NCBI GenBank assembly: GCA_949128115.1
Contig: OX421967.1
Coordinates: forward strand, 20,600,635 to 20,664,634
Source: Anaspis maculata
Lineage: Eukaryota; Arthropoda; Insecta; Coleoptera; Scraptiidae
DNA: 64,000 nucleotides
Direction: 5' to 3'
A program made the translations under genes and the position numbers. Positions 183 through 38,685 of this stretch are shown in pieces; within the stretch, counting starts at the first letter, position 1; each line of letters starts with the position of its first letter. Under the pieces are notes generated by a model. That model did not search any database and had not been told where the DNA came from. It worked only from the letters and a program-made list of their open reading frames with translations.

Positions 183-508
183 TTACTTCTTCTTGAAGTC
201 CACATTTTTAATTTTTCCTGTAAGAGCAATGATCATTCAATTGAAAAACCAGTTAACGAAAAATCTGTGAAGTTTTGCCCACCATGATTCCGAAACTTTA
301 CACTTTTGTTTATTCCACCGGCCCGTTCTTGTTGTTGGTGTTGTTGTTGCTGTTGCTGTTGTTGTTGCTGTTGCTGCCGTTGTAGCTCTTCTGGTTCTCG
401 TTGCAGCTGGGGGCGAAGACCCGTGAGGCCGAGTCTTTGTGGACATTTTGAATGTGCTAGGTTTATAACACACATGATAACAATGCAAAAAATGATCAAA
501 TGCTTCAT
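183..508 (-). CDS. Secreted small peptide precursor, family member 1 (glutamine-rich variant)
   Basis: Two exons on the minus strand: 508-283 and 217-183, intron 282-218 (65 nt, donor GTGGGC, acceptor ACAG). Spliced product is 86 residues. Residues 1-20 form a hydrophobic signal peptide starting MKHLIIFC and ending LAHS. The middle is not acidic as in the paralogs but carries a run of about 12 Gln followed by His-Gln-Gln-Gln. The C-terminus VKFRNHG / KIKNVDFKKK matches the other five genes, and the intron splits the same Gly codon in the same phase. I chose the internal ATG at 508 because it aligns with the paralog starts; an upstream in-frame ATG at 532 would add eight residues. Unspliced, the frame runs on to a stop at 233. 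The acidic spacer and the GKK end are missing, so it is the most divergent in its middle. Function unknown. Confidence 0.78.
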
Positions 509-1279
509 TTTGACTAGATTGAAAAATGGCATTTATGCATGTTCTTTTATGCTCAAATCCACTCTTGGGTATCTGCGATGGAGAATCCATAGGCGAACCT
601 GGTAAAACCTTGCCGGGTGAATTCGCGGATATGTTGTCAACTGATTGGAATAATGTCACAGTGATAGTAACTAAAGCTAAAAACTAAACTAAAGTACTTA
701 CGAGCTTGGATCTTAACTGTTGTACCTACCCAAACAATATTCATAAACTGACTGTTGAGGTGATATTGGCAATTTTATGCAGTAGGTACCACCTGTCAGA
801 GACTTTTTAGGTCTGATCTTGAATCTGTTGCCGGATCAAGCCTTTTTTGTCAAGTCTTATGCAGCAATGAAATGCAATAAAATCAATTCGAATGCATTTT
901 GTCGAACATATTGGCAATATATTGCCGGCGAAATTGTAAAACTCTCAAGTTTTTATTTTCATATTTTTTGTTGGGCCGGTCGTGGTGTGCCGTGCGATTT
1001 AAGAAGTCATTTTTGTGGCACTTCTGTTGTACTTTCTGAATACCGCGTTGTTTTTAAGCTTCGCCAGACGTGTTGGCATAGGCTATTTGTGGCCGCTTTT
1101 GTTCCTCGTTTCCTATAGTAAAATTCTCCTAAATCTTCCATATTCCATATCTTCCGGACGGTTCAACATATCGAGTTCGTTCTTTCGTTAATCGAATTTT
1201 ATCAGCGCACTTCTCCAAACGGGAAGGCGCTTTTGTCTTCGCTTTGTCAGTCCGTCAAAGCATCTAGTCCTAGACGGAA
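509..1279. other. Intergenic; part of a dispersed repeat
   Basis: No gene recognised. CATAAAA on the minus strand at 545-551 is a possible weak TATA for gene 1. The part around 1045-1225, starting near AAGCTTCGCCAGACGT, resembles 52615-52790 (shared CGCCAGACGT, GGCTATTT and TCGTTAATCGAAT-like stretches), so it is an old dispersed repeat. Confidence 0.45.
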
Positions 1280-1870
1280 AGGTTTTTGCGAAAAATTTTC
1301 ATCCAATGGGTAGCTCATGACCTTGTATCCCGAACCATGAAAAATCTCGACGAAATAATGATAAACAATTACAATAATAACAATTTAGTGTGGCGCGGCA
1401 TCGCCGTTGAATGCTGGCTGCATTTCAGAAGCCGGCCTGATCTCGAAAGTTATCACATGCGAACAAGTACCCGTTCTTATCATTTTACAATAATACATAT
1501 GCGGAGTTATATTAAGAGGAGCATTTGAACTTCATTTTAACAAAAATTCCACATCGGTGCGGGACACGGGTCAATACTTATGAATTTTTGAAAATGACTC
1601 CGAAGCTGCGGCTCGGCCGCAAATGATTATTCGTTGTTTGCTGGCGCTTGGAATCTTCTTCTCTGAACGGGACGGAATGCTTGACAAGAAAATTTCAACT
1701 CAAATATGAATAACTCATGGTCTTGGTACACGAACCAAGAAAAAGCCTGCCGAAATAACGATAAACAACTACAATAAAAACATTTGAGTGTACGGCGGCG
1801 TCGCGGATTAATTGCTGAATTTCACATTTGAATGTAAGAAATTAGAACATGCGGAGAAGTACATATTAGA

Positions 1871-3357
1871 ATAGAAATAGAAATATATTTGTCTCTGATT
1901 CATATACAAGAATGTAGACTTTGACATAGATAACAAAACAATACAGAAAAACAAGACTTAAGCCTCTGTCACACGATCAATGAAATCATACTTGTCATAG
2001 AAAATCTAGGACGAGATCAATGATGAAAACAAGTATACTTGCAAGTATACTCGCAAGTATGCCAGAAAATTATGATGGAACGCATTCTATTTCAAATCTT
2101 TGACTTCATCTTGATCCAGTCAGATTACACCTTCCACCCTGCACAGAAATGATGACCGTGTGAAAACTTTTACTCCAGATTTCTGGCATACTCGCAAGTA
2201 TACTAGTTTTCATCCTCGTTTTCATCATTGATCTCGTCTCAGATTTTCAATGACAAGTATGATTTCAATGACCGTGTGACAGAGGCTTTACACTATAATA
2301 CAGTACTAGGTATTATTAATCACATAATAGTCGCAGCAAAATACTCTGAGAAGCTATAATACGCCCCCTCGGCGAGGACACTCCTAAGCCTGATCTTGAA
2401 GGATCTAACACTCTGAATATCTTTGATTGCAGGTGGCAAAGCATTGAACAGTTTTACGCCGAGGTAACTTGGAGATCTTTCGTACATTGAGGCAAAAGGC
2501 CTCCGCCCCGAGTAGGGTACTCGTGGCCGCTGTTGTTCGTGACAAAATTATTGACATTTCTCTTGATAAACAAGATGAGCTTATAAATAAATATACATGG
2601 AGCAGTCAAGATCATGTGAGTCTTAAATAGCGGTCTACACGACTGTCGGGCGTTAAGGCCAAACAGTAAACGTATTATGCGTTTTTGTCCAATGAAAGCA
2701 CGATTCATGTTAACGGCAGCTCCCCATACACAGACGTTATGATTGAGAGCGGAGTGTGCCAACGAGTAATAGACACTCATTAAACTTTCCGCTCCCAAAC
2801 ACGATTTTAGGTTCAATATTGCAAAAAATGCCGCGTTGAGCTTTTTCGTCACGCTCTGGATCTGCTCGGACCAATCCAGGCGAGAGTCCAGAACCGTACC
2901 CAAATACTTAATACATTCCGAGGGTGCCGGGAGCTGAAGGTCAAAGTTAAAATTCAAGTCGTTTCCCGTCAGAGGCCTCCTGTTAAAAAATGTCACAAGT
3001 TCCGTTTTATCGACATTCAGAAGAAGTCGATTTCTTTTTGCCCAACTCGTGAACTCGGACACTACGCGCGCAACCGCCTGACGTAATTCCTCCTCCCCGC
3101 GGGCTGATACCAGAATGGTCGAGTCATCGGCGTACAACACCGTTTTTCCCTGTGTGAGATGTTTAAATAAATCGTTAATGAACAAAACAAACAGCAATGG
3201 CCCCAGGACAGACCCCTGGACCACCCCAAGCCTCAGCCCGCGAGGGCGAGACTCCGCCCCATTCACCCTGATAACGACCTTTCGGTCCGTCAGAAAAGAC
3301 TTCAGCAGGGACAGAAAAGTCCCTCTAAAACCGAGACACCTGAGCCTCTCGAACAGT
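1871..3357 (-). mobile_element. 5'-truncated, frameshifted non-LTR retrotransposon (LINE)
   Basis: Minus-strand reverse transcriptase, longest open stretch 3377-2454. Visible RT motifs: QGSVLGPLLF, FINDL and the catalytic LYADDST box, followed by the thumb region (KYLG, LDWSEQI) and a C-terminal RSPSYLGVKLFNALP-like domain. That last part is in another frame, so there is a frameshift near 2470 and the copy is dead. Endonuclease and ORF1 are missing, as expected for 5' truncation. The 3' end carries a TTCTATTTC-type tail near 1871-1895. A MITE (1960-2288) has inserted in the 3' region. The 5' junction is a small CAGTATG repeat (3355-3390). Jockey/R1-like by general appearance; clade not certain. 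Confidence 0.85.
1960..2288. mobile_element. MITE-like foldback inside the LINE 3' region
   Basis: Long inverted repeat: AAGCCTCTGTCACACG at the left end is matched by CGTGTGACAGAGGCTT at the right, and complementarity continues inward for about 130 bp per arm (ATGAAATCATACTTGTCA, ATCAATGATGAAAAC, AAGTATACTTGCAAGTATAC). No coding capacity. Confidence 0.75.
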
Positions 3358-3540
3358 ATGCAGTATGCAGTATGCATGCATGCAGTATGTATTCTAATGG
3401 AAATACATCACCACATGTGCGGGGTTATATTTAGAAAAAAACTCGAACTTTCTTTTGACAGAAACTCCACTGCGATACGACCCCCGGATCATAAGTTAAT
3501 AATTTTTGAAAACGACCGCAAAGCTACGGCTCGGCGCAAT

Positions 3541-3944
3541 TGAAAAGCTGTACGACTCACTACGGGCGTGTTTCGGTAGCGCATAGAATAAGATAATGAC
3601 GCTTATTATATTATGGCGGGTTTCTTTCTTTTAATTTTTGATGTTTTCTTTATGGCGCATCAATTGCTAGATATTACCGCCGGAACTGTAATGTTTGTTC
3701 AAATTTCAGAAATCAGATCACTGATTTCCAGGAAACGTTAACATTTTGCGTATTACATTACAAGAGCTTAAATGTCTTTGATGTTAGCGGGGAGGGGGGG
3801 AGAAAGAAACAAGAGCCTTGGAACTTTTTTTCAATGGGTAGCTAACATGGATGTAGGAATGATGGCTGGATGGAGCATTACGTCAAAAATGCGGTTCCCA
3901 AACCGGAAATGTCAGAAAAGGCCTCCAAAGTGAACTTGATTTAT
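3541..3944. other. Intergenic, no feature recognised
   Basis: AT-rich DNA without a convincing ORF, RNA gene or internal repeat. It contains the short G-rich run GGGGAGGGGGG near 3788. Confidence 0.4.
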
Positions 3945-5134
3945 GGTGCGATTCTGTAACGAAATGTAAGGCTTAACATTATGCTAGATGCCATGTTATG
4001 TTAGCTTTAGCATAATGTTATCAAATTGCGATTCTCCAAGTGCAATGCAACGCTGTTGCTAACATAACATGGTATGTAGCTAACAGTGCCGGCTCCCCCC
4101 AATGTAAAGCGTTAACATAGCACGTATTAATTATTTTGGTCAGTCCTCCCCATTTTTCTTGAATGTAATTCGACGGCAGTGTGGGGTCGATTGTTCCCGA
4201 CCGAAAAATGTAGCTACCTTCCATAAAATTTAAATACGATTCATACTGAAAACTGCTGGTTCGCATGCCCCGTTTCTTTTTTTTTTTGAGGAATTGCCAT
4301 TTCGTATTATTGGTATTACTTCTCAAAACAGAGTATACTTATAAACACAAGAAAACACCAAAATTTACTAATAATTTTACTAGGTTATGATTAGGGCTGG
4401 GTGGTACCAGAATTCCGGATCGATACTTTTTACCTGATGGGCATCGATATTTAATAAAGTATCGATACCTGACCTAGGATCGATGAAAGTATCAAAGGTA
4501 TCGAGGGTATCGTAGGTATCGACGTATCGCAGGTATCGAAGTATCGCAAGTATCAAAGTATCGCAGGTATCGAGGTATCACAGGTAAAAAAATTTGAAGG
4601 TTTATATTTCAATTTCCACGCGTTATACTAAGTAGTACGTGTCACAAGGATGTATGCTTTTGACATGTTGAATAAGTGCCACAATACGAGTTCCAAAAAA
4701 AAATAGATATCGAACACTTCCTCGGGTCGCAGTACCTAATTAAACAAATCACAAGAGCACATGGTTGTTTATAAACAAACCTCGAAATAAAGTAGGTACT
4801 AACTTCAAACTTCGAGTCTTCGAATACCTACACTCGCCATACCTACTAATCGTACTACCTATATGATTTACATCAGGATATTATGTATAATCATAATCGG
4901 AGCTAAAATAAATCGAAGAATTGACTTCCAGCGCGCATGTTTCTTGGCTCTGTTGCACCATTACTTCGAAACTTTACATTTTTGGTCTAATGAGAACAAT
5001 GTTATTGTGCAAGTAACATTTTGAGTTACAGAATTCGAGTTTATTAACATAATGTTATGTCTCTGCTAACAGAGCTATGTTATCAACATTATGTTAGAAT
5101 AACATAATGTTACGCATAAAGTTACAGAATCACC
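3945..5134. mobile_element. Non-autonomous TIR element (GATTCTGTAAC family)
   Basis: Left end GGTGCGATTCTGTAAC (3945-3960) is the inverse of right end GTTACAGAATCACC (5121-5134). Subterminal TAACATTATG / CATAATGTTA blocks repeat in both orientations at 3975-4030 and 5040-5110. No transposase ORF. A TATCG minisatellite sits inside. Confidence 0.55.
4405..4590. repeat. TATCG-rich minisatellite
   Basis: Degenerate repeats of about 8-17 bp built on (A/C)GGTATCGA and AGTATCGC, with about 15 TATCG or TATCA words in under 200 bp. ATCGAT palindromes recur. Noncoding. Confidence 0.8.
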
Positions 5135-6658: not shown

Positions 6659-6856
6659 ATGTCCGAAAACGAAGCCGAAGAACGGAATTCTTCATCTAAA
6701 ACCAATCCATTCAACGTATATCTCCGAGCATCTTCATCTTCATCTCCATCATTCAAACGAGCATTCAAACTTCTAATTTTATTTGAAGTGTTGACTTGGG
6801 AGTTGCCGGAGTTTTCACTATTTTCTGCAAGAAATCAGAACCTCATTAAAAAATAA
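6659..6856 (+). CDS. Short Ser/Glu-rich ORF, doubtful gene or first exon
   Basis: A 65-codon ORF begins MSENEAEERNSSSKTNPF with a Ser-rich stretch around residues 26-32. The first 45 codons look more protein-like than neighbouring ORFs, but the rest (LFEVLTWELPEF...) shows no known domain and no TATA or initiator is obvious upstream. It could be the 5' exon of an unseen gene, or chance. I do not recognise it. Confidence 0.2.
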   Translation: MSENEAEERNSSSKTNPFNVYLRASSSSSPSFKRAFKLLILFEVLTWELPEFSLFSARNQNLIKK

Positions 6857-6864
6857 TCATGTAG

Positions 6865-7086: not shown

Positions 7087-8100
7087 TAGGTTTAATAAAG
7101 ATTGCAATTTGTTGGGCGATTTAGCCCTTTTTTCCAAGATGCCTGATGGATGTAACCCCACTGAAGGTGCTGTCAAATCGCATAAGTGAGGTTATGTAAG
7201 GTGGTGGAATGAAGCGTTTTTCGGGGAAAAAATGAATTAACATGAATATTACGGCCAGCAATTTATCAAACTTGACTTACCGATGAAGCGCAATGCCCTC
7301 TGAACTTGAGGTTGTGGTCCGCAACAGCCCGCACAATTTACAGGACACCATCGTGGACAACTCTGCAAAATGAATCGGATTACAAACGAACTGCACTGGA
7401 ACTGGTAGAAAAAAACAGTATTCTCGTTGTTGTTATGATAGATCAGACATTACTTACTCAGAATTACAAATTTTGATGCACTCAATTCCACTTATTTGGA
7501 CTGACGCGATTTCTGTGACAGCCAGTTGACGGTTTCGAACAGCGTGTTGATTATATCTCAAAAATCAAGTTCACCTTGGCCTTGGAGGCCTCGCTTCCGC
7601 TTTAAGCCCCGCCCCTCAGCTCAAAATCGGGTACCAAAAATTCAATTGTTTTTGGCTTTATGCTCTATCCAGCCATTCCTACATCCATGGTAGCTAATGT
7701 TCTTTAGGATAGCCAATGGGCACTGTTTTTCTTATCCATTCATAGTTATCATTATTATTAAAAAAAAATCTGTGCACTTAGAAGAAGTTGAACTTTTCCT
7801 CAGGGAATGAAGCTACAGCCCTTGAACTTTATCCGATGGATAGCTTAGATCCTCAAGGACCAAGTAGGCAGATTGGCCTAATAATTCCGCCGCCATCTTA
7901 GCCGCCATATTGGAATCTCTTATTAGTTGTACGATTGTCATGAATCTTGAAACTTATCTTGTCTGGTACGATCATTCTCATTTTCAATTTTAGCCGAATT
8001 CCATGATTCTGCCGCCATCTTAGCTGCCATATTGAAATTTCTTATTAGTGTAACGATTTCCATGGAACTTGAAATTTAATCTTGTCTTGAATATAAACAT
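7087..8100. repeat. Intergenic with composite YY1-motif repeats at the right end
   Basis: 7087-7700 shows no gene. From about 7700, the AAGAAGTTGAAC...GATGGATAGCTTAG unit is the same as the longer array at 18966-19375. It is followed by two copies (about 7890 and 8005) of a roughly 118-bp unit with CCGCCATCTTAGCCGCCATATTG, the unit of the 19380-20080 array. Confidence 0.6.
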
Positions 8101-8335
8101 TCTTATTTGGGCATTGGGCATCATCTGCGATAAGAGGAAAAATCGTACCTACCACCCCTACTATTACAACAGGCCAAAACAGCCTATGGGATTCTTGATT
8201 CCCAAGTTTTTTTCCGACGTATTTTCCAATTAATTGCTATTATCACACTGTGACATTATTGAAAGAAAGGCAATAATAATCAATCTGAGTTTATTCCAAA
8301 TCGCTCAAAAATTCCCACCATAGATACAGTAGACT

Positions 8336-8372
8336 TATAAAAGCGAACGCGTGAAAGCATCAAGTATTCAGT
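8336..8372 (+). promoter_or_regulatory. TATA box and TCAGT initiator of family gene 2
   Basis: TATAAAA at 8336-8342 and TCAGT at 8368-8372 lie about 31 nt apart, the usual arthropod core promoter geometry, with the ATG 21 nt downstream of the initiator A. The same layout recurs at genes 3, 4 and 5. Conservation among paralogs continues upstream to about 8090. Confidence 0.75.
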
Positions 8373-8390
8373 TCCACTGCTGCATCTAAA

Positions 8391-8743
8391 ATGAAGTACT
8401 TGTTTGTTTACTGCTTTCTGGTCATGTTCGCTTTGAATATGGCCCGTAAAATTGAGCCCGAACCACTGAATGACAAATCCCTCAATGCAGAACTAGGAGC
8501 TCCCAATCCAAACTTACTGGACACCCAAGGCTTTGTCGGCGATGAGGGTGATGAGGGTGATGAGGGTGGAGAAGGGGAAGAAGAACAAGAAGCCAGTGGA
8601 GAACAACACACCAATATCAAATTCAAAAATCACGGTAAGATAATTAAACTAAAGAAGTTCTCTGAATACTTGAATAAATAATAATAACTTAAATAATGAT
8701 TTGTTCAGGTAAAATAAAAAATGTGGACTTCGGCAAGAAGTAA
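8391..8743 (+). CDS. Secreted acidic-pro/basic-tail peptide precursor, family member 2
   Basis: Exons 8391-8634 and 8709-8743, intron 8635-8708 (74 nt, GTAAGA...TTCAG). Product 92 residues. Residues 1-18 (MKYLFVYCFLVMFALNMA) are a signal peptide. The mature N-terminal part is strongly acidic with GDEGDEG repeats and EEEQE. The basic tail IKFKNHGKIKNVDFGKK is encoded across the splice junction. Gly-Lys-Lys after Phe is a canonical C-terminal amidation and dibasic processing signal in secreted peptide precursors, so an amidated -VDF end is possible (inference). A TATA/initiator lies just upstream and AATAAA at 8867-8872. It is the only plus-strand member, in inverted orientation to its paralogs. 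Unrecognised family. Confidence 0.88.
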
Positions 8744-9770: not shown

Positions 9771-9802
9771 TGATTCTTGTCAAATTTGGTCCTAATCCAT
9801 CG

Positions 9803-10785
9803 GATAAAGGACCCCGCACGATTCTTATGGAAAATGGCTCTGGAAAATGGAGGTTTTGACGGCTTAAAAATGATATTCTGACGTAAATAAAAGCTTTCTA
9901 TTTAGTTTCTCTTCAAGTTGTGTTTCATGCTAAATGTATTTATTCGACAGAAAAATATCAACCTTCTCCTTCACCCCCATCCCCTATCTACCATCACAAA
10001 ATTCGAGATTACTCTCAAAAGCCATGCAGATGGCTTCTGTGATTTAAATTATGAATTTTGACATAAAAATTATTTTCCACCCCTAATGTTGGGGTGCCGA
10101 TTTTCCAATTTTCCTCGGTTAATTTGGCTGAATTTTTGGTATTGTGTACTTCTAATTCTGCTGAACAAAAAGTTCTCAAACCAAAACTTATTCCTATGAA
10201 CAGTTTTTGTTCTGCAGGGGACTTAAGTTGAAGATTTGAGAGCATAAATATTGAACTTCAGTCCCCTGCAGAACAAAAACTGTTCATAGGAATAAGTTTT
10301 GGTTTGAGAACTTTTTGTTCAGCAGAATTAGAAGTACACAATACCAAAAATTCAGCCAAATTAACCGAGGAAAATTGGAAAATCGGCACCCCAACATTAG
10401 GGGTGGAAAATATTTTTTATATCAAAACTCATAATTTAAATCACAGAAGCCATCCGCATGGCTTTTGGGAGTAATCTCGAATTTTATGATGGTAGATAGG
10501 GGTTGGGGATGGAGGAGGGGGTTGAGATTTTTCTGTCAAATAAATACATTTAGCATGAAACACAACTTGAAGAGAAACCAAATAGAAAGCTTTCATTAAC
10601 GTCATAATATCATTTTAAAGCTGTCAAAACCTCCAACTTCAACCCCCTGTAGATAAAAAAATATCCATTATTTGAGTTTGGGGTTCACGGTATTCGATTA
10701 GTATCTCATGAGCTACAACATATCACAAATTCAGAGAATTTAACCGGGAGCCATTTTCCATAAGAATCGTGCGGGGTCCTTTTGA
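9803..10785. mobile_element. ~1-kb foldback element
   Basis: Nearly symmetrical arms around about 10250. AAAGGACCCCGCACGATTCT (about 9805) matches AGAATCGTGCGGGGTCCTTT (about 10765); the inner 220 bp per arm are almost perfect (AGCCATGCAGATGGCTTCTG versus CAGAAGCCATCCGCATGGCT). The right arm is about 90 bp longer. ORFs inside are arm reading frames without a known domain. Confidence 0.8.
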
Positions 10786-16289: not shown

Positions 16290-16749
16290 TTACTTTTTGT
16301 TGAAGTCCACATCTTTTATTTTTCCTGAACAAATCATTATTTCAATTATTATTATTTGAGTATTCATAGAAATACCGTATGTTCATTAAAAACTTCAATA
16401 AAGGGAGGCTGTGACGCAGGCCATTCGATCCGAAAACGGCCAGGTTATCATCGGTCCACGGCCTCCCATTATTGAATTTTTTAATGAACATACTGTACTT
16501 TAGTTTAATTTTCTTACCGTGATTTTTGAACTTATAAGTATTGTGTTGTTCTTCACTGGCTTCTTCTTCTTCTTCTTCTTCACCCTCATCACCCTCATCG
16601 CCGACAAAACCTTGGGTGTCCAGTAAGTTTGGATTGGAAGCTCCTAGTTCTGCATTGAGGGATTTGTCATTCAGTGGTTCTGGCTCAATTTTACGGGCCA
16701 TATTCAAAGCGAACATAACCAGAAAGCAGTAAACGAACAAGTACTTCAT
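16290..16749 (-). CDS. Secreted acidic-pro/basic-tail peptide precursor, family member 3
   Basis: Exons 16749-16518 and 16324-16290; intron 16517-16325 (193 nt). Product 88 residues with the same signal peptide as gene 2, an acidic middle (GDEGDEGEEEEEEE), and a tail KFKNHGKIKDVDFNKK. The Gly before Lys-Lys is replaced by Asn, so this copy lacks the amidation donor seen in genes 2, 4 and 5. The intron is longer than in the paralogs because a 121-bp MITE has inserted in it; splice sites are intact. If the intron were retained, translation would run through MITE sequence to a stop at 16342. Confidence 0.86.
16375..16495. mobile_element. MITE inside the gene 3 intron
   Basis: Termini CCGTATGTTCATTAAAAA and TTTTTAATGAACATACTG are inverted repeats flanked by TA on both sides (16373-16374, 16496-16497). 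Genes 4 and 5 have the uninterrupted intron (TAGAAYTACTTTAG), which confirms the insertion. The end resembles the TIR of the 33934-35504 element (CAGTATGTT). TA target and CAGT start suggest a Tc1/mariner relative. Confidence 0.8.
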
Positions 16750-16767
16750 TTTAGATGCAGCAATGGA

Positions 16768-18960: not shown

Positions 18961-18965
18961 TGTAG

Positions 18966-19379: not shown

Positions 19380-20080
19380 TTGGATTTCATGGTTGCGCCG
19401 CCATCTTGGCCGCCATATTGAAATTCCTTACTAGTGGAACGATTTCCATGAAACTTGAAAGTTACCCTTGTCTTGTATGATCATTCTTATTTGAAGCTAA
19501 ATTTCATGATTTCGGCCATCTTGGCCGCTATATTGAAATTTCTTGTTAGTGGAACGATTTGCATGGAACTTGAAACTTACCCTTGTCAAGTATGATCATT
19601 CTTATTTTCAAGCTAAATTTCATGATCCTGCCGCCATCTTGGCTGCCATATTGAAATCTGTTAATAGTGGATCGATTGTTATGAAACTTGGAACACCTGC
19701 TCTTGTCTCGTATGAACAATCTTATTTTCATGGTGAATTTTATGATTCCGCCGCCATATTGAAATCTGTTATCAGTCGAGGGATTGTCATGAAACTTGGA
19801 ACTCACTCTTGTCTTGTATGAGCGTTCTTATTTTCAAGGTAACTTTAATCATTCCGCTGCTATCTTGGTCGCCATATTGAAATCTGTTATTAATGGAGGG
19901 ATTGTCATGGAACTTGGAACTTTACTCTTGTCTCGTATGGACATTCTTATTTTCAAGCTGAATTTCATGATTTAGCCTCCATCTTGGCCGCCATATTGGA
20001 ATTTTCCATTAGTGGAACGATTGTCATGAAACGAGAAACTTACTCTTGTCTCGTATGAACATTTAATTTTCAAGCTGGAC
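19380..20080. repeat. Tandem array, ~118-bp unit with CCGCCATNTTG motifs, six copies
   Basis: Unit starts near 19396, 19515, 19630, 19748, 19858 and 19977. Each has GCCGCCATCTTGGCCGCCAT or a close variant, then TTGAAAYYYNTTANTAGTGG, ATGAAACTTG and CTCTTGTCTCGTATGA. ORFs on both strands are repeat artefacts. CCGCCATNTT is the known YY1/Pho core, so each unit could be a binding site (inference). Confidence 0.85.
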
Positions 20081-20514
20081 TTCATTCCTATCAATGACAG
20101 TCCTGGAACTAAAAAAATGCGCTATTGAGACCCACGCAGGTGAGGGCAGATTCACTTGTTTAACATGTACTTATGTCCATCTTTTGCATAGGCTTCTCAT
20201 AGTCCAAAATTATACCCATATCTAACATACTATACGGTGATTATGCACTTACACTTACACACAAAGTTCCTTGCAAGGAACTTTAAATAAGGTTTACTGC
20301 TTTGTTCCCTTCAACTTTTTGTAAGCACCGCTTTGTATTAGTTATTATATAATTGCTAAGGAAGGAATAAACTTTTTTTTATTTTGTAATCTGTCAGATG
20401 GAACTGTCACTGCCAAAAAATGACTGAAACTATTATCTCCCGGAACTTGACGAACAGAAAGCAACGCAATGAAGGAATAAAGTTTAATCTGCCGTCGGAA
20501 TTTTCCACCATTTC

Positions 20515-24829: not shown

Positions 24830-25187
24830 TTACTTCTTGCCGAAGTCCACATTTTTTATTCTTCCTGAACAAATCATTATTTCAATTGTTATTATTAATT
24901 TGAGTATTCATAGAACTACTTTAGTTAATTATCTTACCGTGATTTTTGAACTTATAAGTATTGTGTTGTTCTTCACTGGCTTCTTCTTGCTCTTCTTCTT
25001 GTTCTTCTTCCCCTTCTCCACCCTCATCACCCTCATCGCCAACAAAGCCTTGGGTGTCCAGTAAGTTTGGATTGGAAGCTCCTAGTTCTGCATTGAGGGA
25101 TTTGTCATCCAGTAGTTCGGCCTCAATTTTACGGGCCATATTCAAAGCGAACATGACCAGAAAGCAGTAAACGAACAAGTACTTCAT
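24830..25187 (-). CDS. Secreted acidic-pro/basic-tail peptide precursor, family member 4
   Basis: Exons 25187-24938 and 24864-24830, intron 24937-24865 (73 nt, GTAAGA...TTCAG). 94 residues: signal peptide identical in sequence to gene 2, acidic middle with GDEGDEGGEGEEEQEEEQEE, tail KFKNHGRIKNVDFGKK. Ends with the Phe-Gly-Lys-Lys amidation-type signal. The N-terminal spacer reads KIEAELLDDKS rather than KIEPEPLNDKS. TATA/initiator and 3' flank are shared with gene 5, its closest relative by eye. Part of a direct segmental duplication. Confidence 0.88.
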
Positions 25188-25205
25188 TTTGGATACAGCA
25201 ATAGA

Positions 25206-25242
25206 ACTGAATACTTGATGCCTTCACGCGTTCGCTTTTATA
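25206..25242 (-). promoter_or_regulatory. TATA box and initiator of family gene 4
   Basis: TATAAAA (25242-25236) and TCAGT (25210-25206) on the minus strand, preceded by the conserved upstream block up to about 25520. Confidence 0.72.
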
Positions 25243-25625
25243 AGTCCACTGTATCTGTGATGGGAATTTTTGAACCATTTGTAATAAACTTGGATCGATT
25301 ATTATTGTTTTTGTTGCAATAATGTTACAGTGTGATAATGGCAATTAGTTAGTTGGGAAAAACTTGAGAATCCAATTATTTGGGAAAAACTTGGGAATCA
25401 AGAATCCGATCGGCTGTGTCTTGGCCAACTAAATATAATAGTCGGGGGTGGTAGGTACGATTGTTGCGTCTTATCGCAGATAAAGGTAAGTATAGTAGGT
25501 AATCTAAAAAAAATGACAATTTTTTATTGTTATTTCGAGGTATGCTGAGACGCTGGGACTTATTGATATATTATTCTTGTGTGGGTTTGTCGACCCAATT
25601 TAATTTGCAGGGAAGTAGAGTCCAT

Positions 25626-25870: not shown

Positions 25871-26719
25871 ATGGTAGAATGGTGAAAATAAGCTTCTTGT
25901 CAGGATCTGCCAAATGAAAGTTTGACTGTCAAAAATTGACAGAAGATTGTGATGTAACAAATTTGACGTATGCTATGCTTCGTTTTTGGACCCTCCAATG
26001 ACTATGCAGAATGCTCATAGGGGGTTGTCCTAGTTTCCACATGTAAAAATAGGCTTTTGGCTGCGATCCGCCGATCAGGAGTACCAAAACAAAATTGATA
26101 TAAGAGCGTTGCAAATTTCGTAAATAATTCTTTTTCTTCAAAAATATTCTACGGAATACGGTGAAATTCAGTACAGTAATAGTGTTCATGGAGCAGCACC
26201 GAGTGTAGTGGGACTTGGCACACCGCGCTGCCCCACTAATGGAAGGGAAAGTATTGTGATCGTGCTAAGTTTTTTCCAGGTGACAGCAAATATCTCCGTT
26301 TTGAAGTCCTTCAAAACAATCAAATCATTTCCAAATTGATATCTGTCCGTGTATATGACTGTAATCTCTCACGATAACTGTCGAGCCGTTGATCCGTTTG
26401 AATTGAAATTTGCAATATAGTTCTGGTTTCACCCTGGGATGCGACCGGAGGAGGGACGATTCATTTTTGGCTGTCATCTGTCAGATGGAACTGTCACTGC
26501 CAAAAAATGACTGAAGCTATATCTCACCGAACTTGACTTGCGAACCTTCATTTGGAAGCCTGTGTATCCAGAATAATCAAAAGTATTTTTCCATATGTCA
26601 TCTGTCATAAACATAAACAAGCGAATATGACTCATGGGCATGAGGCTAAGTAGCGCACTTCCTTTTTGAAGGATTAGTGAACGCAAGATGTTCAGGGTTC
26701 TACCGTTATTTGGGCAGAA
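25871..26719. repeat. Upstream flank of gene 4, repeated upstream of gene 5
   Basis: 25960-26215 (GGCTGCGATCCGCCGATCAG, AAGAGCGTTGCAAATTTCG, AGTGTTCATGGAGCAGCAC) matches 35740-35990. 26320-26520 matches 18560-18760 and 20390-20430. The short ORF at 25929-26189 belongs to this repeat. Confidence 0.65.
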
Positions 26720-27760
26720 ATTTCAATATGACGGCCAAAATAGCGTCAGAATCGTGAAATTTGGCTTGAAAATTGAAATGATCGTACTATAGACAAGGGT
26801 AAGTTCCAAGTTTCATGAAAATCGTTCCACTAATAAAAGATTTCAATGTGGCGGCCAAGATGGCGACAGAATGTTGGAATTTGGCTGGAGAATAAGAATG
26901 ATCATACGAAACAAAGGTAAGTCCCAAGCTCCATGAAAATCGTTGAGTGATGAGATATTTCAATATGGCGGCAGAGCATCATTTATCCAAAATCGGATGT
27001 ATTTTGATAAAGTTCACATCGCCTGTGAATTTCACTCAAATCGGACTACTTTCAGAGAAATTCAAAACAGCGGATCAAAGATGGCGACCAAGTGACAAAA
27101 ATAATTGGTCAACTTCATATTGTGGACACGTATGCATTCGATTGGCGTTTGCACCACATCGATACCTCTTTTCGTTAAGGCATAATTCTCCTAGTTCTAT
27201 CACTTTGAAACATGTTCAATTAAGGAGAATACAAGATGGCGGCGGGGCATCAATTGTCGGAAATTGGATGTATCTAATTGAAGTTCACATCGCCTGCAAA
27301 TCTTACTCAAATCAGACCACTTTCAGAGAAATTCAAAATGTCGGATCAAAGATGGCAGCCTAATGACAAAAATCATTGGTCAACTTAATAATATGGTGGA
27401 TACGTACGCCTTTCATTGGCGTTTGCACCACATCGATGTCTCTTTTCGTTGAGGCATAATTCTCTTTATTTTATCACTACGAAACATGTTCAATATGGAG
27501 AATACAAAATGGCGGCGGGGCATAAATTGTCAAAAATTGGATAGATCTTGATGTGGTTAACATTGCCTGCAAATTTCATTTCAATCGGATCACTTTTAGA
27601 GAAATTCAAAATGTCGGATCAAATATGGCGGCAGAATAACAAAAAAACCAAAAGTCAACTTGACATCCTGCACATATGTACTATTGATCAGCGTTTACAC
27701 CACATGGATATCTTTCTTCCCCGAGGAGTTATCCCGGGTACGGACGGACGGACAAAGTGA
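26720..27760. repeat. Two tandem arrays with ATGGCGGC motifs
   Basis: 26720-26960 has about three inverse copies of the 118-bp unit of 19380-20080 (GGCGGCCAAGATGGCG). 26960-27730 is a different array of three units about 272 bp apart (CAATATGGCGGCAGAGC at 26959, CAAGATGGCGGCGGGGC at 27231, CAAAATGGCGGCGGGGC at 27507), sharing TTCAGAGAAATTCAAAA and GCGTTTGCACCACATCGAT. A CGGACGGACGGACAAAG microsatellite closes it. Confidence 0.8.
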
Positions 27761-29558: not shown

Positions 29559-29699
29559 TATATCGGAAACGGGGGACGTCAGGAAAATTACGAAGGCAGA
29601 TTCTGATTTGCCTTGTGAAAGTACATCTACTCCTGAGCTATGTCGGTTACTTCGTGGGACACCGAAGTATTTATATAGAAATTTTATTGAAAAAATTAT

Positions 29700-32168
29700 A
29701 GTCCAAGAGCTGGCGACAAAAAAAGTGCGACAGTTTTCTAAAGGCTGAAACTCTGGAATATGTTAGATTACCCAATTACTTCCATGAAATAAATAGTCAG
29801 ACACCGGTTCATCAGAACCTGCTCAATCGGCAGCCAAAAAAAGTCCGAAATGCCCGAACGGACAGTTCTGATAACGCACAGCATTGTTGTCTGACGCACA
29901 GCTCTGTTGTCTGATGCAAATATATCAGCAGTTGCATCTGTTGTCCGAGTTACGGTTCAAGTGAATCGCCCGTAGCGACCATGGAGGTGTAGCGACATAC
30001 AGATTTGGGGAAAAAATCAGAGATAGTCCGGTGGTTAAGCGCCAAAAAAAGCTCGAACTATGCATTTTGAGCTTAAGCAATGCGCTTTTGGGGTTTGATT
30101 GAGGATCCCCATACCTTAATTTCAAGAGTTGGAGACATCGGTGCACTCGATGCGGAGGGGGTCTGGGGGGCCCTTGAAAGTTGAAGGTGCGAGGCTTCCC
30201 ACCAAATCACCATACCACCACGTAATTCCTACTGGGAGGCCATCAAACGACTCTAACCTGTACATTGACAACATTTGTTACCATGTCCAAATAGTTCTTC
30301 ACACTGAAAAAAATTAATTCTTATGACAGATCGGAAAAAACAGTTTTTCTCAATTTTTCATCCCCACAACGAATAAACTGCCAAGTGTGGTGTCATTTTG
30401 GAGTAAACGGCATCCTCTGATTTCATTCACCGAGTCAAAATGTTTGTGAGACCACCGTGCAAAAAATGACACGCCAAGAAGTGAGCATTTTTGAGCACCT
30501 CATTTAACAGTAGTTTCTCGGCTGATACCAATCGATATGATTGATAATTTTGTCATGGATCAATAACTTGAACTCTTTTGTAACGGTAATGCATGTGAAT
30601 GAAACTCGACACGAGCGTGGAGGCCTGGAAACAAATTTTTTTCTCCAGCGGTCGAATTTATTTCACGCCTACTGAGCGTTAGTTTGTTGGGCTCAGGCAG
30701 GCAGCGTTTGGATAGGTTTGGAGACAAAACTTTCATATTTGTCTATGCAGCTGTGTAGCATAATTCTGGAAACTGATTTGAGAATCATCAAAGATTATTT
30801 TGACAGTCACTAGGTACCCCCATGGGGATTAACTGCAGGGATCATGGCTGACGACGGAGGGCATTCAACTTTTAAAGTGTTATTTTCTTTTTTCCTCTAC
30901 CAACCTTCAAGGTTGTTTAATCATTTTGTACGTGTAAGTTTTCTTATGTTTGGAGAAGAAATAATTTTATAAAAACAACCGTGAAAATGACTGTCAGAGT
31001 GGCAGAGAATAAGATCTTGGACGTTGAATTCCCTCCGCCGTTAGCCATCACCTCTGCAGTTAACCACCATGTGGGTACTGACCGGCAAAACAATCATTGA
31101 TGATTCATAAATCGATTTCCAGAATTAAACTGCTCAACTTTTCAGATAGATATGGAAATTTTGCTTCCAAAGCTATCCAAACGCTGCCTGCCTGAGCCCA
31201 ACAAACTAACGCTCAGTAGGCGTGAAATAAATTCGACCGCTGGAGAAAAAAAAAATTTACAGGCCTCCACGCTCGTGTCGAGTTTCATTCACATGCATTA
31301 CCGTTACAAAAGAGTTCAAGTTATTGATCCATGACAAAATTATCAATCATATCGATTGGTATCAGCCAAGAAACTACTGTTAAATGAGGTGCTCAAAAAT
31401 GCTCACTTCTTGGCGTGTCATTTTTTGCACGGTGGTCTCATAAACATTTTGACTCGGTGAATGAAATCAGAGGATGCCGTTTACTCCAAAATGACACCAC
31501 ACTTGGCAGTTTATTCGTTGTGGGGATGAAAAATTGAGAAAAACTGTTTTTTCCGATCTGTCATAAGAATTAATTTTTTTCAGTGTGAAGAACTATTTGG
31601 ACATGGTAACAAATGTTGTCAATGTACAGGTTAGAGTCGTTTGATGGCCTCCCAGTAGAAATTACGTGGTGGTATGGTGATTTGGTGGGAAGCCTCGCAC
31701 CTTCAACTTTCAAGGGCCCCCCAGACCCCCTCCGCATCGAGTGCACCGATGTCTCCAACTCTTGAAATTAAGGTTGAGGGACCCCCAATCAAACCCCAAA
31801 AGCGCATTGCTTAAGCTCAAAATGCATAGTTAGAACGCTTAACCACCGGACTAAGAAGCCTTGTGTAATAGAACCATCTAATGAAGAGAAGTAAGTACCT
31901 AGGCACACCTAGGTGTGGTCATAGCCGTAACTCAGACAACAGATGACAGCTGTGGGTCAGACAACAGAGCTGTGCGTCAGATAACAAAGCTGTTCGTTGT
32001 CAGAACTGTCCGTTCGGGCATTTCGGACTTTTTTTGGCTGCCGATTGAGCAGGTTCTAATGAACCGGTGTCTGACTGTTTATTACATGGATGTAATTGAG
32101 TAATCTAACATATTCCAGAATTTCAGCCTTTAGAAAACTGTTGCACTTTTTTTTGTTGCCAGCTCTCC
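29700..32168. mobile_element. 2.5-kb foldback with matching ORFs on both arms
   Basis: Arms meet near 30935 (AACCTTCAAGGTT). CTGAAACTCTGGAATATGTT at 29745 mirrors AACATATTCCAGAATTTCAG at 32107. A 62-codon ORF (METSVHSMRRGSGG..., 30129-30317 +) recurs at 31570-31758 (-) with one residue difference (Pro to Ser), which reflects arm symmetry rather than coding constraint. CTGTTGTCTGA repeats lie at both outer ends. Confidence 0.8.
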
Positions 32169-33276: not shown

Positions 33277-33632
33277 TTACTTCTTACCGAAGTCCACATT
33301 TTTTATTTTTCCTGAATAAATCATTATTTCAATTATTATTTATTTGAGTATTCATAGAATTACTTTAGTTTAATTAACTTACCGTGATTTTTGAACTTAT
33401 AAGTATTGTGTTGTTCTTCACTGGCTTCTTCTTGCTCTTCTTCTTGTTCTTCTTCCCCTTCTCCACCCTCATCACCCTCATCGCCAACAAAGCCTTGGGT
33501 GTCCAGTAAGTTTGGATTGGAAGCTTCTAGTTCTGCATTGAGGGATTTGTCATCCAGTAGTTCGGGCTCAATTTTACGGGCCATATTCAAAGCGAACATG
33601 ACCAGAAAGCAGTAAACGAACAAGTACTTCAT
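33277..33632 (-). CDS. Secreted acidic-pro/basic-tail peptide precursor, family member 5
   Basis: Exons 33632-33383 and 33311-33277, intron 33382-33312 (71 nt). 94 residues: signal peptide MKYLFVYCFLVMFALNMA, acidic spacer with GDEGDEGGEGEEEQEEEQEE, tail KFKNHGKIKNVDFGKK. An in-frame ATG three codons upstream (33641) exists but the conserved MKYL start is preferred. It differs from gene 4 at only a few residues (for example RKIEPELLDDKS and LEASNPN). TATA and initiator lie 5'. A 1.6-kb transposon (33934-35504) has landed about 300 bp upstream, separating the gene from the rest of the conserved 5' block. Confidence 0.88.
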
Positions 33633-33650
33633 TTTGGACACAGCAATGGA

Positions 33651-33687
33651 ACTGAATACTTAATGCCTTCACGCGTTCGCTTTTATA
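33651..33687 (-). promoter_or_regulatory. TATA box and initiator of family gene 5
   Basis: TATAAAA (33687-33681) and TCAGT (33655-33651) on the minus strand, same geometry as genes 2-4. Confidence 0.72.
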
Positions 33688-34044
33688 AGCCCACTGTATC
33701 TGTGATGGGAATTTTTGAACCATTTGGAATAAAGTTAGATTGATTATTATTGTTTTTGTTGCAATAATGTTACAGTGTGATAATGGCCATTAGTTGATTG
33801 GGAAAAACTTGAGAATCCAATCAATTGGGAAAAACTTGAGAATCAAGAATCCGATCGGTTGTGTCTTGGCCATCTATAATAGTCGGGGTAGTGGTACGAT
33901 TTTTGCCTCTTATCGCAGATGAAGGTAAGTATACAGTACGTTATTTAATCAAAAAACCACCATCTGTCGCTTTCAGTTGGTAGAAAAAAAATTCCTGTTG
34001 CCCGATTAATGTTGTTATGTTGACGTCAGGTCAAAAATGAAAAA

Positions 34045-34287
34045 ATGTCAGGGATGTCAGGCCCGTCAGCTCATTCAAATTCAAAAAGCCGCTTTGACAT
34101 GAATGCCGAGAAAAACGCATCGGATGCAGAATTGACTGATTCTTCTGCTTCGGACTTTGGAGATGAAACTGGTGATGCACATAAGGTTGCCACGGAAACT
34201 TCTGATGTTCTTTCCGTTTGGTTCTTTGTTCTAGTTTTCTTTTTCATGGTTGATTTAATGTTAAGCAGCGTTCATAATGCCTGTTGA
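34045..34287 (+). CDS. Ser/Asp-rich ORF with C-terminal hydrophobic segment, inside a transposon
   Basis: 80 codons. N-terminal 50 residues are polar (MSGMSGPSAHSNSKSRFDMN, then acidic and Ser-rich to about residue 45), followed by one strongly hydrophobic stretch (VWFFVLVFFFMVDLML, about residues 56-71) and a short tail ending in Cys, which resembles a tail-anchored protein. It lies near the left TIR of a TA-flanked element. Possibly a captured host fragment, an exon, or a chance ORF. Not recognised. Confidence 0.3.
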   Translation: MSGMSGPSAHSNSKSRFDMNAEKNASDAELTDSSASDFGDETGDAHKVATETSDVLSVWFFVLVFFFMVDLMLSSVHNAC

Positions 34288-34407
34288 CTTGAACTTATTC
34301 CTTTTGATCGGTTTCTTGTCCTTCTTAATTATCGATATGACGCTTTAATTGAGGACATAGGACGAATTCAAACTTTTTATTTGTGAATTGTAGTCGTATA
34401 ATGCAAA

Positions 34408-34435
34408 GTTTCACCATAATTTAGGGCTTCATCAG
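34408..34435 (-). ncRNA. Hammerhead-like core, left arm (degraded stem II)
   Basis: Minus strand: CTGATGA-AGCCCTAAATTATGGT-GAAAC. Both conserved boxes are present, but the 3' side of stem II has changed (ATGGT instead of AGGGC), so pairing is mostly lost. Confidence 0.4.
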
Positions 34436-34764
34436 GCTAAAAATGAACATACAGATTAACAATCACAAACAAGATGTGGAAGGGCTTACCAAAATACAAA
34501 ATTGCAAAGTCAAAGGCATAATGTGGGGAGAGAGAGACGAGAAAGCCAATGCACATAATTTGGCCGAGGTGTACTAGCCGTGTGGTCGTTTTTTATTATA
34601 AAAAGCAAGATAAGATACGAGTTTTTTAACCTCGGCCAAATGATGTGCATTGGCTTTCTCGTCTCTCTCTCTCTCCATAATATGCCTTTGACTTTTCAAT
34701 TTTGTATTTTGGTAGCCCTTCCACATCTTGTTTGTGATTGTTAATCTGTATGTTCTTTTTTAGC

Positions 34765-34792
34765 CTGATGAAGCCCTAAATTAGGGCGAAAC
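34765..34792 (+). ncRNA. Hammerhead-ribozyme-like core, right arm
   Basis: CTGATGA (34765-34771), a five-pair stem II GCCCT/AGGGC with AAATT loop (34773-34787), then GAAAC (34788-34792). This is the best match in the window to the hammerhead core CUGAUGA-stem II-GAAA. The stem III and UH cleavage triplet are not unambiguous: GTTGCATTATACGAC follows and could form a short CGT/ACG stem. Confidence 0.5.
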
Positions 34793-35506
34793 GTTGCATT
34801 ATACGACTATAATTTAACTTATTCCCTAACCGTAAAACTTCAACAGTTGAAAATCAATGTTGTGGTTCACAGTAGGATGGTAACTTAATATGCCGTTCTG
34901 TCCAACTTGACCAAGATTCAAGTTCTACATCCAAGATCAAGGGACTAGTACCAACTAATACTACTAGCTACTAGTCCTACTATTATACTACCAGTTACCA
35001 GTACTACCCACCCCGCAAACCTTCAAGTTTGTGTATATTTCATATTATAGACCGTGGTCCGTACTGTCAAGTTTACATCCTACATCCTACGGCATGCGGC
35101 ATAAGTTACCGGCCATTATGAACGAAGCTTCTGCTAGGTAGAGACCAAGGTATGATCCGAAATAAATAAGTACCTACCTCATGTAACCAACCAGGCTCTT
35201 CATCATGAATAGGAAATTATCGTGTTCACCTTTTTGTAGGTTCTATCTATCCTCTGAGCAGGAGTGTCCAAGGTGAGCCTGGGGCTCACAATATCGCTTT
35301 AAATTGTCTACAAACTTCACACGGCATATTTTTTTGAAATAAACCTGTGTCAGTGTGAAGTGTGACAACCGTAAATAATTACAGACGTCTGTACTCTCAA
35401 CAGTGTCAAAAATGCTCCTAAATTTCCACACTAAACAGCGTTGCCGTTGTTCGTTTGGGGGTAGAATGCGACGTTGGTGGTTTTTTAATTAAAAAAACAT
35501 ACTGTA

Positions 35507-36322
35507 GTAGGCGTAGTAGGTAATCTAAAAAAAAAATGACATTTTTCATTGTTATTTCGAGGTATGCTGAGACGCCGGGATTTGTTGATTGTTGATATAT
35601 TATTCTTGTGTTATATCTGTGTAAGTGTGTGTTGCTTTGTTTTTGTCCTTTGATTCATTTCTAAACGGCTCGACCAATTTTGACCCAATTCAATTTGCGG
35701 GGGAGTATGGTGAATTCTGATAACGATTTTGACGTGCTATGCTTCGTTTTTGAGCCTCCAAAGACTATGCAGTATGATGGTCATAGGAGGTTGTCCTAGT
35801 GTCCAGATGTAAAAATACGCTTTTGGCTGCGATCCGCCGATCAGGAGTACCTAAACAAAATTGATGTAAGAGCGTTGCAAATTTCGTAAATAATTTTTTT
35901 TCTTCAAAAATATATCACGGAAGACGATGAAATCTAGTACAGTAATAGTGTTCATGGAGCAGCACTGAGCGTAGTGGCACTCGACCAATAAGAAATTGCA
36001 CGTATCAATAGAAGATAAGAAGACAAGGTCAAGAAGATCTCGCGGAACGTCAACCTGAGTGTCAACCACTTCAAAATAATTCCACAGAACACCATCCACG
36101 TCAAGGAGGATCCTACAGAAACACCACCCACGTCAAGAGGATTCCACAGAACATACCTACATCAGAAGGACCCCATAGGACAACGTGGAACCACTACAGC
36201 GGTGAAAAAAGGAAGGATGTGGAGACCAGCAAATGAAGCTTGTTCTTGTGATTACGCATACCTAGATTGTATAGCGTTGATGACGCACGAGTATGTAACG
36301 CGTACAGTTAGTTAGCTCCTAA
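35507..36322. repeat. Distal upstream flank of gene 5, then unassigned DNA
   Basis: 35510-35990 repeats the upstream flank of gene 4 (TTTCGAGGTATGCTGAGACG, GGCTGCGATCCGCCGATCAG). 36000-36200 has loosely repeated words (AGAACACCATCCACGTCAAG / AGAAACACCACCCACGTCAA), a small degenerate tandem. No gene. Confidence 0.55.
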
Positions 36323-36528
36323 TAGGCCATCCACAATGATGTTAATGTTAACGTAATGTTATCGGCAATGGTAATGTTAGCATTCAAAGCAACGAGTTTC
36401 AATGGTAATGATTACCATTGCCACTAACATGAATGTGAACGTCACCATTTGAAAATCGTTGCTTTGAATGCCAACATTACCATTGTCGATAACATTACGT
36501 TAACATTAACATCATTGTGGATGGCCTA
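36323..36528. mobile_element. MITE, ~205-bp palindrome
   Basis: TAGGCCATCCACAATGATGT ... ACATCATTGTGGATGGCCTA; arms continue as AACGTAATGTTATCG and AATGGTAATGTT. A few GTTAAC/AACATTAC words repeat within the arms. Confidence 0.8.
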
Positions 36529-37090
36529 TAAGACTGGATGTGTGTGTATCGATGCCGGTAGAGCCGACAAATAAAGACTGTGCAATTACATGTATTCCGT
36601 GTTATTATTTGGGCTAGCACACATCCTTACCTAAATCGACCCGCAGTTGTATAAGGAAGAGAATGGTGGTAGAATGGTTACTGTAAAATATACGGTTACC
36701 GTTGCGCTTTATGACTCAAGCACCTGGATGGTTATATTCACTCGTTCAAGTTCATCCATTTTAAGCAAATGCTTTCAGCAAAAGCCCACTAAACTACCTA
36801 GCAAAGCTAAAGCTAAGAGCGAATGCGAAAAGTGAAATCCTTGATTTTTATTTATACTGCTCATGATCACAGCACGTTGAAAATCCCTACCATCTGATAT
36901 AGAAATAGGTTCGAGCAAATTTCCATTCAGGGTGAGTGGCTCGAACCCCTGGAGTCAGTTATTGGTCTCGTCGTGAAAATAGGCCGACGTTAAATAAACA
37001 AACAGTTATCTATTGGTCAATTCCAAGTGACCAGACCTCACTTAATGATGTCATATTAGTTATGCTCATACATCGTTACCAACCAACATA
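36529..37090. other. Intergenic
   Basis: The ORF at 36647-36835 (Ser/Lys-rich) has no recognised motif. Nothing else is supported. Confidence 0.4.
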
Positions 37091-38134
37091 CCGGGTGATC
37101 ATTTGAAAACTATCCATCTGCAATAACTCCCGATTCCTAGTGAATATTTTTTCGAGCAAAAACAGGTCGATTTTTATATCGAGGGGGACATCTAAAACAT
37201 ACATTGGCAAATTTCTATATTCACCCCCCTCGCCCCCACTCACCACAACTTTGAAATTTCAAATGACACTATCTACCTTGCGATACATCAAATATTGGAG
37301 ATAAATTAATTTTCTCTCTGGAAAAAATATTTCCAAAATTTTTAACCTCACCCCCTTTTCCCTAAAAATTCTCTGACTGTTCCATTTTATATTCTGGACT
37401 CCTCATTTTTTTCTCAATTTAGTCGGCGTCATCCTAAATAGCATCGAAAAAGAAAATTTTCGGTGGGAAAAGTGCTACCCAAATTTAACAAAACACCACC
37501 TACTTTGTGATACATCAAATTGAAGGGAATTGAATTCTCTTTCTGAGAAGAATTTTTCTTAAATTTTTCACCCCTCCCCCAATAAATTGGTCATTTGGAG
37601 TATTCCAGGGGGGAAATAAGGGGCTTTAAAACTTGTGAAAAATCTTTTTCAGGAAGAGAATTCAATTTCCTCCAATTTGATGTATTACAAAGTGGGTATT
37701 GACATTTTAGTTTTTAGGGTCAGGTGGGGGGAGCGAAGGGGTGAATTTGGGTGGCACTTTTTTTTATAGAAAATTTTCTCTTTTGATGCTGTGCAGAATG
37801 ACGTTGACTGTATTGAAGGGAAATGGAGGTCAAGAATATTAACTTGGACACTCAGAGAATTTTAGGAAAAACGGGGGGTAGGGTTGAAAAATTTCAAAAT
37901 AGTTTTTTTAGAGAGAATTTAATTCTCTCAAATTTGATGTATCGCAAGGTAGGTGGTGTCATTTGGAATTTCAAAGTTGGGGTGAGTGGGGGCGAGGGGG
38001 GTCAAGATATAAATTCTCCGATGTATATTTTAGATGTCCCCCTCGATATAAAAATCGACCTGTTTTTGCTCAAAGACTTTTGCACTAGGAATCGGGAGAT
38101 ATTGCAGGTGGATAGTTTTCAAATGATCACCCGG
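37091..38134. mobile_element. TA-flanked foldback, CCGGGTGATCATTTG family, copy 1
   Basis: CCGGGTGATCATTTGAAAAC (left) and GTTTTCAAATGATCACCCGG (right) between TA dinucleotides (37089-37090; 38135-38136). Arms include AAAACAGGTCGATTTTTATA and CTACCTTGCGATACATCAAA. Same family as 58809-60181. The ORF at 37823-38194 spans an arm and the flank. Confidence 0.85.
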
Positions 38135-38376
38135 TATAACCCTCCCACATACAACACAACATTAAAAAAATCCTGGCGTAAAAAAATATTTTAAATGAAA
38201 ATAAAATACGTAGAGATATTGTATAAAGTCAGTTTTTGTTTATAAATAGTTAGTAGTTACAGTAAATAAATAGTATATGTAGTTACAAATACTTGTTACA
38301 AGCATTTCATTGTATTCAAGTTTTTAGTATGGTTATTTTCATGGTAGGTTGGGTCCAAACTGAAGTTTTTGGCAGC

Positions 38377-38685
38377 CTATTCACTGTTCCTTTTAAAGTG
38401 AACATTATGTATGGTTCCTGAAATGACAGTATCTAGTTGTAATTGTTATTAGTACCAACTGAATTATACGTTACCGTAGTTATTGATATTATAAACTTTA
38501 GTTCCGGACCTCGTTCCGAACTCTGTTTCTCCACTGTCTCCAGAGCCCTCATCACCAAGAAACCCGTCGGTGTTAAGCAGGCCTGGATCAGAAACTTCTA
38601 GTTCTGGACCAAGTTGTGGAGTGATTTTATCGGCCAAATTCATCGCGCACAAAATGCAAAAGCAGTAAACGGTCAAATACTTCAT
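38377..38685 (-). CDS. Secreted peptide precursor, divergent family member 6
   Basis: Exons 38685-38475 and 38417-38377, intron 38474-38418 (57 nt, GTAACG...TTTCAG). Product 83 residues. Signal peptide MKYLTVYCFCILCAMNLA; shorter acidic spacer (LGPELEVSDPGLLNTDGFLG, DEGSGDSGETEFG) that aligns with LDTQGFVGDEG of the others; tail YNINNYGTIHNVHFKRNSE. The intron splits the same Gly codon, and the G-x-I-x-N-V-x-F core is kept, but Phe is followed by Lys-Arg-Asn-Ser-Glu rather than Gly-Lys-Lys. No amidation donor; Lys-Arg could still be a convertase site. It has Cys residues only in the signal peptide. Confidence 0.78.

Follow-up and report, generated by a model that had tools for sequence, protein, structure and literature searches.

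A cluster of six spliced genes on chromosome 7

The window studied here is a stretch of 64,000 nucleotides from chromosome 7 of the false flower beetle Anaspis maculata (Tenebrionoidea: Scraptiidae; C7:20600635-20664634 of the 757.8-Mb genome), and it holds six related loci, g1 to g6, encoding short peptides that are predicted to be secreted. Each locus has a signal-like N terminus, a phase-1 GT-AG intron running through one glycine codon, and a short tail encoded by exon 2. At all six, the donor splits the glycine codon as G/GT and the acceptor reads AG/G. An original prediction, made from the letters of the window, had proposed a shared signal, a phase-1 intron at the same glycine codon and a spliced-on tail, and this architecture was borne out at six of six loci. 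Its junctions (282/218, 8634/8709, 16517/16325, 24937/24865, 33382/33312, and 38474/38418) were exact to the base, the numbers giving exon ends for g2 and intron ends for the other five loci.

On the minus strand, g1 consists of exon 1 at 283..508 (226 bases, encoding the signal, a Gln-rich spacer, and VKFRNH, with the donor GTGGGC), a 65-base intron, and exon 2 at 183..217 (35 bases, KIKNVDFKKK and a stop). The plus-strand gene g2 has exon 1 at 8391..8634 (244 bases, with an acidic spacer and IKFKNH) and, after 74 intron bases, exon 2 at 8709..8743 (35 bases, KIKNVDFGKK and a stop). The other four genes are on the minus strand: g3, with exon 1 at 16518..16749 (232 bases), an intron of 193 bases, and exon 2 at 16290..16324 (35 bases, KIKDVDFNKK and a stop); g4, with exon 1 at 24938..25187 (250 bases), an intron of 73 bases, and exon 2 at 24830..24864 (35 bases, RIKNVDFGKK and a stop); g5, with exon 1 at 33383..33632 (250 bases), an intron of 71 bases, and exon 2 at 33277..33311 (35 bases, KIKNVDFGKK and a stop); and the divergent member g6, with exon 1 at 38475..38685 (211 bases), an intron of 57 bases, and exon 2 at 38377..38417 (41 bases, TIHNVHFKRNSE and a stop). 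Read without splicing, the open reading frames of g1 to g6 are 91, 96, 135, 88, 90, and 73 amino acids long, compared to 86, 92, 88, 94, 94, and 83 after splicing. Single frames do end these genes wrongly, as had been claimed, but at all six loci rather than at five.

We described exon 2 as a motif (AG/G, x[IV]xx[VL]x[FL]x[KR][KRN], 10-12 codons, stop). It matched the window six times, exactly at the six genes, while 100 first-order Markov sequences gave a mean of 0.01 matches and a maximum of 1. Since the motif was composed after the tails had been seen, the paralogues elsewhere in the genome provide a better test.

A family of at least 14 genes under constraint

A search of the genome (758 Mb) recovered 14 apparently intact genes and one disrupted copy on chromosomes 2, 3, 4, and 7. 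This count is a lower bound, as the searches scored the best candidates only; moreover, the low-complexity exon 1 of g1 was not among the queries, and further Gln-rich members could be missed. The six-gene cluster proposed originally thus stands as six loci in the window, but not as the size of the family. The eight further intact members comprise two close copies on chromosome 7, far from the window (31.78 and 62.04 Mb), two genes on chromosome 2 (1.41 Mb), a trio on chromosome 4 (29.17-29.18 Mb), and one gene on chromosome 3 (74.03 Mb); the disrupted copy lies on chromosome 4 at 29.147 Mb. A chromosome 4 query matched the chromosome 3 gene with an E value of 6.4e-13 and the chromosome 7 copies at 1.5e-4 to 0.008. 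The divergent g6 is nearest to the chromosome 2 pair, which it matched at 1.0e-14 and 5.5e-13.

The intron has the same phase and position in all 14 intact members, exon 1 ending on the first base of the glycine codon, and 57-193 bases past the donor each has an AG/G acceptor leading into a short open tail; the acceptors were picked among several candidates by resemblance to the known tail. The donor is GTAAG in 11 of the 14 and weaker in g1, g6 (GTAACG), and the member C4a (GTAAAA). All eight paralogues outside the window share this intron, with a candidate exon 2 at the equivalent position, which is independent evidence that the splice and the tail are real. Comparison of paralogues thus settles the gene models here without RNA, and we consider it almost certain that the gene family is real. 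Small secreted genes with a last exon of 11-13 codons are easily given a wrong end when single frames are read.

Among the six close copies of the chromosome 7 group, the mean p-distance was 0.149 upstream, 0.060 in exon 1, 0.113 in the intron, 0.116 in exon 2, and 0.102 downstream. The pooled ratio of nonsynonymous to synonymous differences (pN/pS) was 0.38 (exon 1, 0.34; exon 2, 0.56), a descriptive figure, as the copy pairs share ancestry. Lengths of exon 1 varied by multiples of three only, and exon 2 was without insertions or deletions. Repeats and pieces of retroelements abound in the window, as would be expected if the loci were transposon pieces or chance open reading frames. However, the original prediction had named very many transposon-like copies genome-wide as the finding that would overturn it, and we found at least 14 places in 758 Mb. 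The retained introns, the whole-codon length differences, the pN/pS of 0.38, and the ends of the shared DNA, which differ from copy to copy instead of being fixed, likewise argue against such an origin, and we regard it as extremely improbable.

An undescribed family had been announced, and our searches agree. Among candidates returned by the protein collection with exon-1 queries at E values up to 10, 0 of 51 and 0 of 829 matched; in these queries, the two chromosome 2 rows of alignment A1 reached only 51 residues. Eukaryotic proteins may be sparse in this collection, so that missing matches are weak evidence of novelty. In Pfam-A, up to an E value of 10, the six spliced members scanned (of 14; g1 was not among them) matched no family, including the antimicrobial peptide families (defensin, attacin, coleoptericin, cecropin, and others), and exon 1 of g1 gave seven weak matches, all under the cut-off. 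The two members tried against the PDB, C4a and one chromosome 2 gene, had no match there. Because the collections were searched without other beetle genomes, the genes are orphans with respect to these collections. Likewise, the literature matches listed included no publication on Anaspis maculata peptides, the genome note aside, which is not proof of absence. The public annotation was made with BRAKER2 in protein mode, using protein evidence only (PMC11252652), and orphan genes of this kind may therefore be absent from it. The family appears young, expanding, and so far peculiar to Anaspis maculata.

With regard to the layout of the cluster, the first five genes had been described as spaced by about 8 kb. 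Their start distances are indeed 7.9-8.4 kb, but they do not form a uniform 8-kb array, since just ~1.0-1.2 kb of DNA is shared, g2 has the opposite orientation, and no self-match of at least 150 bases involves g1. The intron of g3 (16325-16517) holds an inserted element of ~120 bases with ~17-base inverted ends, a 92% copy of which occurs in locus L030 on chromosome 2 (near 4390-4534); the insertion resembles a small non-autonomous DNA transposon. Close to family genes on chromosomes 7, 4, and 2, there is a repeat whose period is ~118 bases (window 7881-8108, 19384-20085, and 26716-26972; L026, L027, L029, and L030). The window further contains Gypsy-like retroelement pieces with RVT_1 reverse transcriptase and integrase zinc-binding domains in Pfam (45405-47469, minus strand), a reverse transcriptase fragment (RVT_1; 2457-3407, minus strand) apparently from an element without long terminal repeats, and long inverted repeats at 30053-31834 and 9843-10640 (589-base arms at 98% and 395-base arms at 94%). 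Also present are a partial DPM3 gene for a dolichol-phosphate mannose synthase subunit (Pfam DPM3; 48760-49434, minus strand) and an open frame of 345 codons with abundant Ser, Arg, Asp, and Glu and no Pfam match (41804-42841, plus strand).

Conserved ends and a spacer of variable charge

The predicted products measure ~65-76 residues after the signal. A hydrophobic N terminus ending in alanine, a predicted signal according to a hydropathy heuristic, was present in all 12 members scored. It is followed by the motif LL[DN][TP]xGF in 13 of 14 members and by a Gln run in g1. At the other end, the segment F-x-N-(x)-G-x-I-x-N-V-x-F-x-K-K is completed only by removal of the intron. In addition to the tails of g1 to g6 given above, we found KIGNVDFGKK, KIKTVDFNKK, VIENVRFNKK, VIDTVTFNKK, VIENVRFDKK, and IVGSLKLKKK, as well as longer tails in the two chromosome 2 genes, which start with TIKNLK and TINNMIFK and finish with FDFGISLG. 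The tails lack cysteine, and 11 of the 14 end in KK. Their pattern is kept although exon-1 identity falls to ~35% between the chromosome 7 and chromosome 4 groups. The conserved parts across the family are the signal, the LL[DN][TP]xGF motif (except in g1), and the tail. The pattern F-x-N-(x)-G-x-[IV], in which residues alternate, hints at a hairpin-like tail.

The spacer between these ends behaves differently. Among the 12 of 14 members covered by our charge figures, its net charge ranges from -12 to -15 among the six close copies and amounts to -4 in g6, -1 in g1 (poly-Gln), +4 to +6 on chromosome 4, and +11 on chromosome 3, the spacers on the last two chromosomes being Lys-rich. The net charge of the tail, scored in 12 members, runs from +7 to -1. 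The original reading, in which an acidic spacer adjoins a basic tail, therefore fails as a family rule: with spacer charges from -15 to +11, acidity cannot be a common working principle. This also bears on the idea that the spacer neutralizes a cationic tail until cleavage. The six close copies would suit it well, combining their acidic spacers with tails of +4 or +5, but the chromosome 4, chromosome 3, and g1 spacers break the rule and the close copies have no convertase site, which makes the idea quite improbable.

A neuropeptide precursor had also been suggested. In such a precursor, or in that of a hormone, the tail would be cut off and, in certain members, amidated. Indeed, g2, g4, g5, and L034 end in FGKK, a possible amidation signal (4 of 12 tails), both chromosome 2 genes end in glycine, and dibasic sites precede the tail in the chromosome 4 genes. 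However, other tails have N, K, or D instead of this glycine, and in the six close copies the tail is not set off from the spacer by a dibasic site. The arrangement of an amidated precursor, with a dibasic site and a G-K/R signal around the peptide, was therefore not supported. Many divergent copies would, furthermore, be unusual for a hormone. A role of this kind seems very improbable.

Promoters and a possible role in host defense

Nine of the 14 promoters share a block that consists of a reversed kappaB-like site, then AGAT, then a TATA box; counted from the ATG, the kappaB-like site is at -82 to -119. This block was defined after the promoters had been inspected. It is present in all six close chromosome 7 copies, in two of the three chromosome 4 genes, and, in a looser form, in the chromosome 3 gene, and its spacing is conserved in the promoter alignment. 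A background of 256,320 strand-bases gave four modules, a number equal to that of the window's own g2 to g5, which had stayed in the background. The g2 promoter (8121..8390, plus strand) carries the kappaB-like site GGGAATTTTT (reverse) at -84, then ATAGATA and TATAAAAG; the g4 promoter (25188..25481, minus strand) has a kappaB-like site at -84, AGATA, and TATAAAAG. A further copy of the promoter occurs on chromosome 3 (L033, ~650-775; region of C3:74026758), with GGGGATTTTT reversed and GATA 2 bases away. No family gene was recognized downstream of it, and it is apparently the remnant of a lost family copy.

The only defensin gene that we found in the Anaspis maculata genome has GGGGATTCCT ~290 bases before its ATG, with GATAA close by. 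Like the new genes, it encodes a small secreted peptide, has an intron, and carries a kappaB-GATA pair upstream, but it has a Cys-rich fold and its kappaB site lies farther from the ATG than the 82-119 bases of the new family. The moricin promoter of a moth requires both a kappaB and a GATA site, which are separated by 2 bp (PMC5457402); the likeness to this lepidopteran gene concerns the promoter only, namely, the proximity of kappaB and GATA sites to each other and to the transcription start.

We hypothesize that the family encodes immune-inducible host-defense peptides, with a probability of about 0.45. An antimicrobial role, one of the options named originally, gains from the kappaB-like block and from the kappaB-GATA pair of the defensin gene. 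Infection would most likely switch the genes on through Rel/NF-kappaB and GATA factors. Each product would then comprise a signal, the LL[DN][TP]xGF motif, a spacer that evolves rapidly and varies in charge, and a spliced C-terminal segment serving as a beta-hairpin-like active end. The peptides would act in the hemolymph or at barriers, and the family would have multiplied through duplication.

Several observations weigh against this hypothesis. Of the 12 members scored, 7 have a net acidic mature product, which is unusual for classical cationic antimicrobial peptides. The proximal kappaB-like block is lacking in g1, g6, both chromosome 2 genes, and C4b, and the positive control for immune promoters is a single gene, the defensin. 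The sequence GGGRAYYYYY, taken as a kappaB-type consensus, occurred 7 times versus 0.2 expected, but these matches are non-independent, as five of the seven fall in one recent clade. Among the six close copies, exon 2 diverges as much as the intron (0.116 versus 0.113), and in the chromosome 4 trio pN/pS reaches 0.79, so that constraint there is weak or change faster. Finally, the published fly Rel motifs GGRDNNHHBS and GGGHNNNDVH (PMC12419901) were enriched only weakly in 250 bases (24 versus 16.7 and 25 versus 16.1 expected). Among active kappaB sites, strong conservation is limited to GGG (PMC4742911).

The raised pN/pS of the trio would also fit secreted peptides that are restricted to the lineage and made in another gland (male accessory, salivary, or defensive) or in the gut, where the promoter block would be a gland element. 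A conserved signal and conserved termini around a drifting spacer would be in line with this, and such families also duplicate fast and retain their gene structure. A 16-base element, TATCACTGTGACATTA, points the same way. It has three exact copies genome-wide, all at family genes or at a family promoter remnant: one lies upstream of g1 (651..666, minus strand; C7:20601285-20601300), and the L033 promoter copy carries the block as well. With up to one mismatch, it occurs at 18 places, versus 7 for a reversed control, and 2 of the 15 one-mismatch copies are family-associated. The element thus looks family-specific. We rejected it as a general switch, since no family-like gene was recognized within the ~650 bases downstream of the other 13 places, one of which (L053) has a kappaB-like site. 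The presence of the kappaB-GATA block in three lineages nevertheless points elsewhere, and we see a gland or gut origin as possible but doubtful. A salivary effector, as suggested originally, is less likely, given that the beetle visits flowers and has saproxylic larvae (PMC11252652).

If the genes do serve host defense, their closest parallels would be the lineage-restricted defense peptides of flies (Bomanin, Daisho, Baramicin, and Paillotin), which are likewise short secreted products of small genes. Paillotin also has a conserved C terminus (PMC12419901), and the Bomanins form a ten-gene cluster at one locus (PMC12894722), reminiscent of the Anaspis cluster. However, no sequence relation to these peptides was seen; Paillotin was found in Brachycera only (PMC12419901), the Anaspis tail gets its last part from exon 2, and induction is here only predicted. 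A bolder version, in which the genes would represent a new class of insect immune peptides whose hairpin-like tail, assembled by splicing through a glycine codon, is the conserved active part and whose linker, with charges from ~-15 to +11 among paralogues, re-tunes one scaffold for different targets, is in our opinion unlikely.

If the promoters mean what they suggest, these genes would constitute an orphan immune family, open to testing, in a beetle lineage for which the matches listed included no peptide work. The family would then also offer a natural experiment, in which peptides keep their ends while the charge between them reverses.

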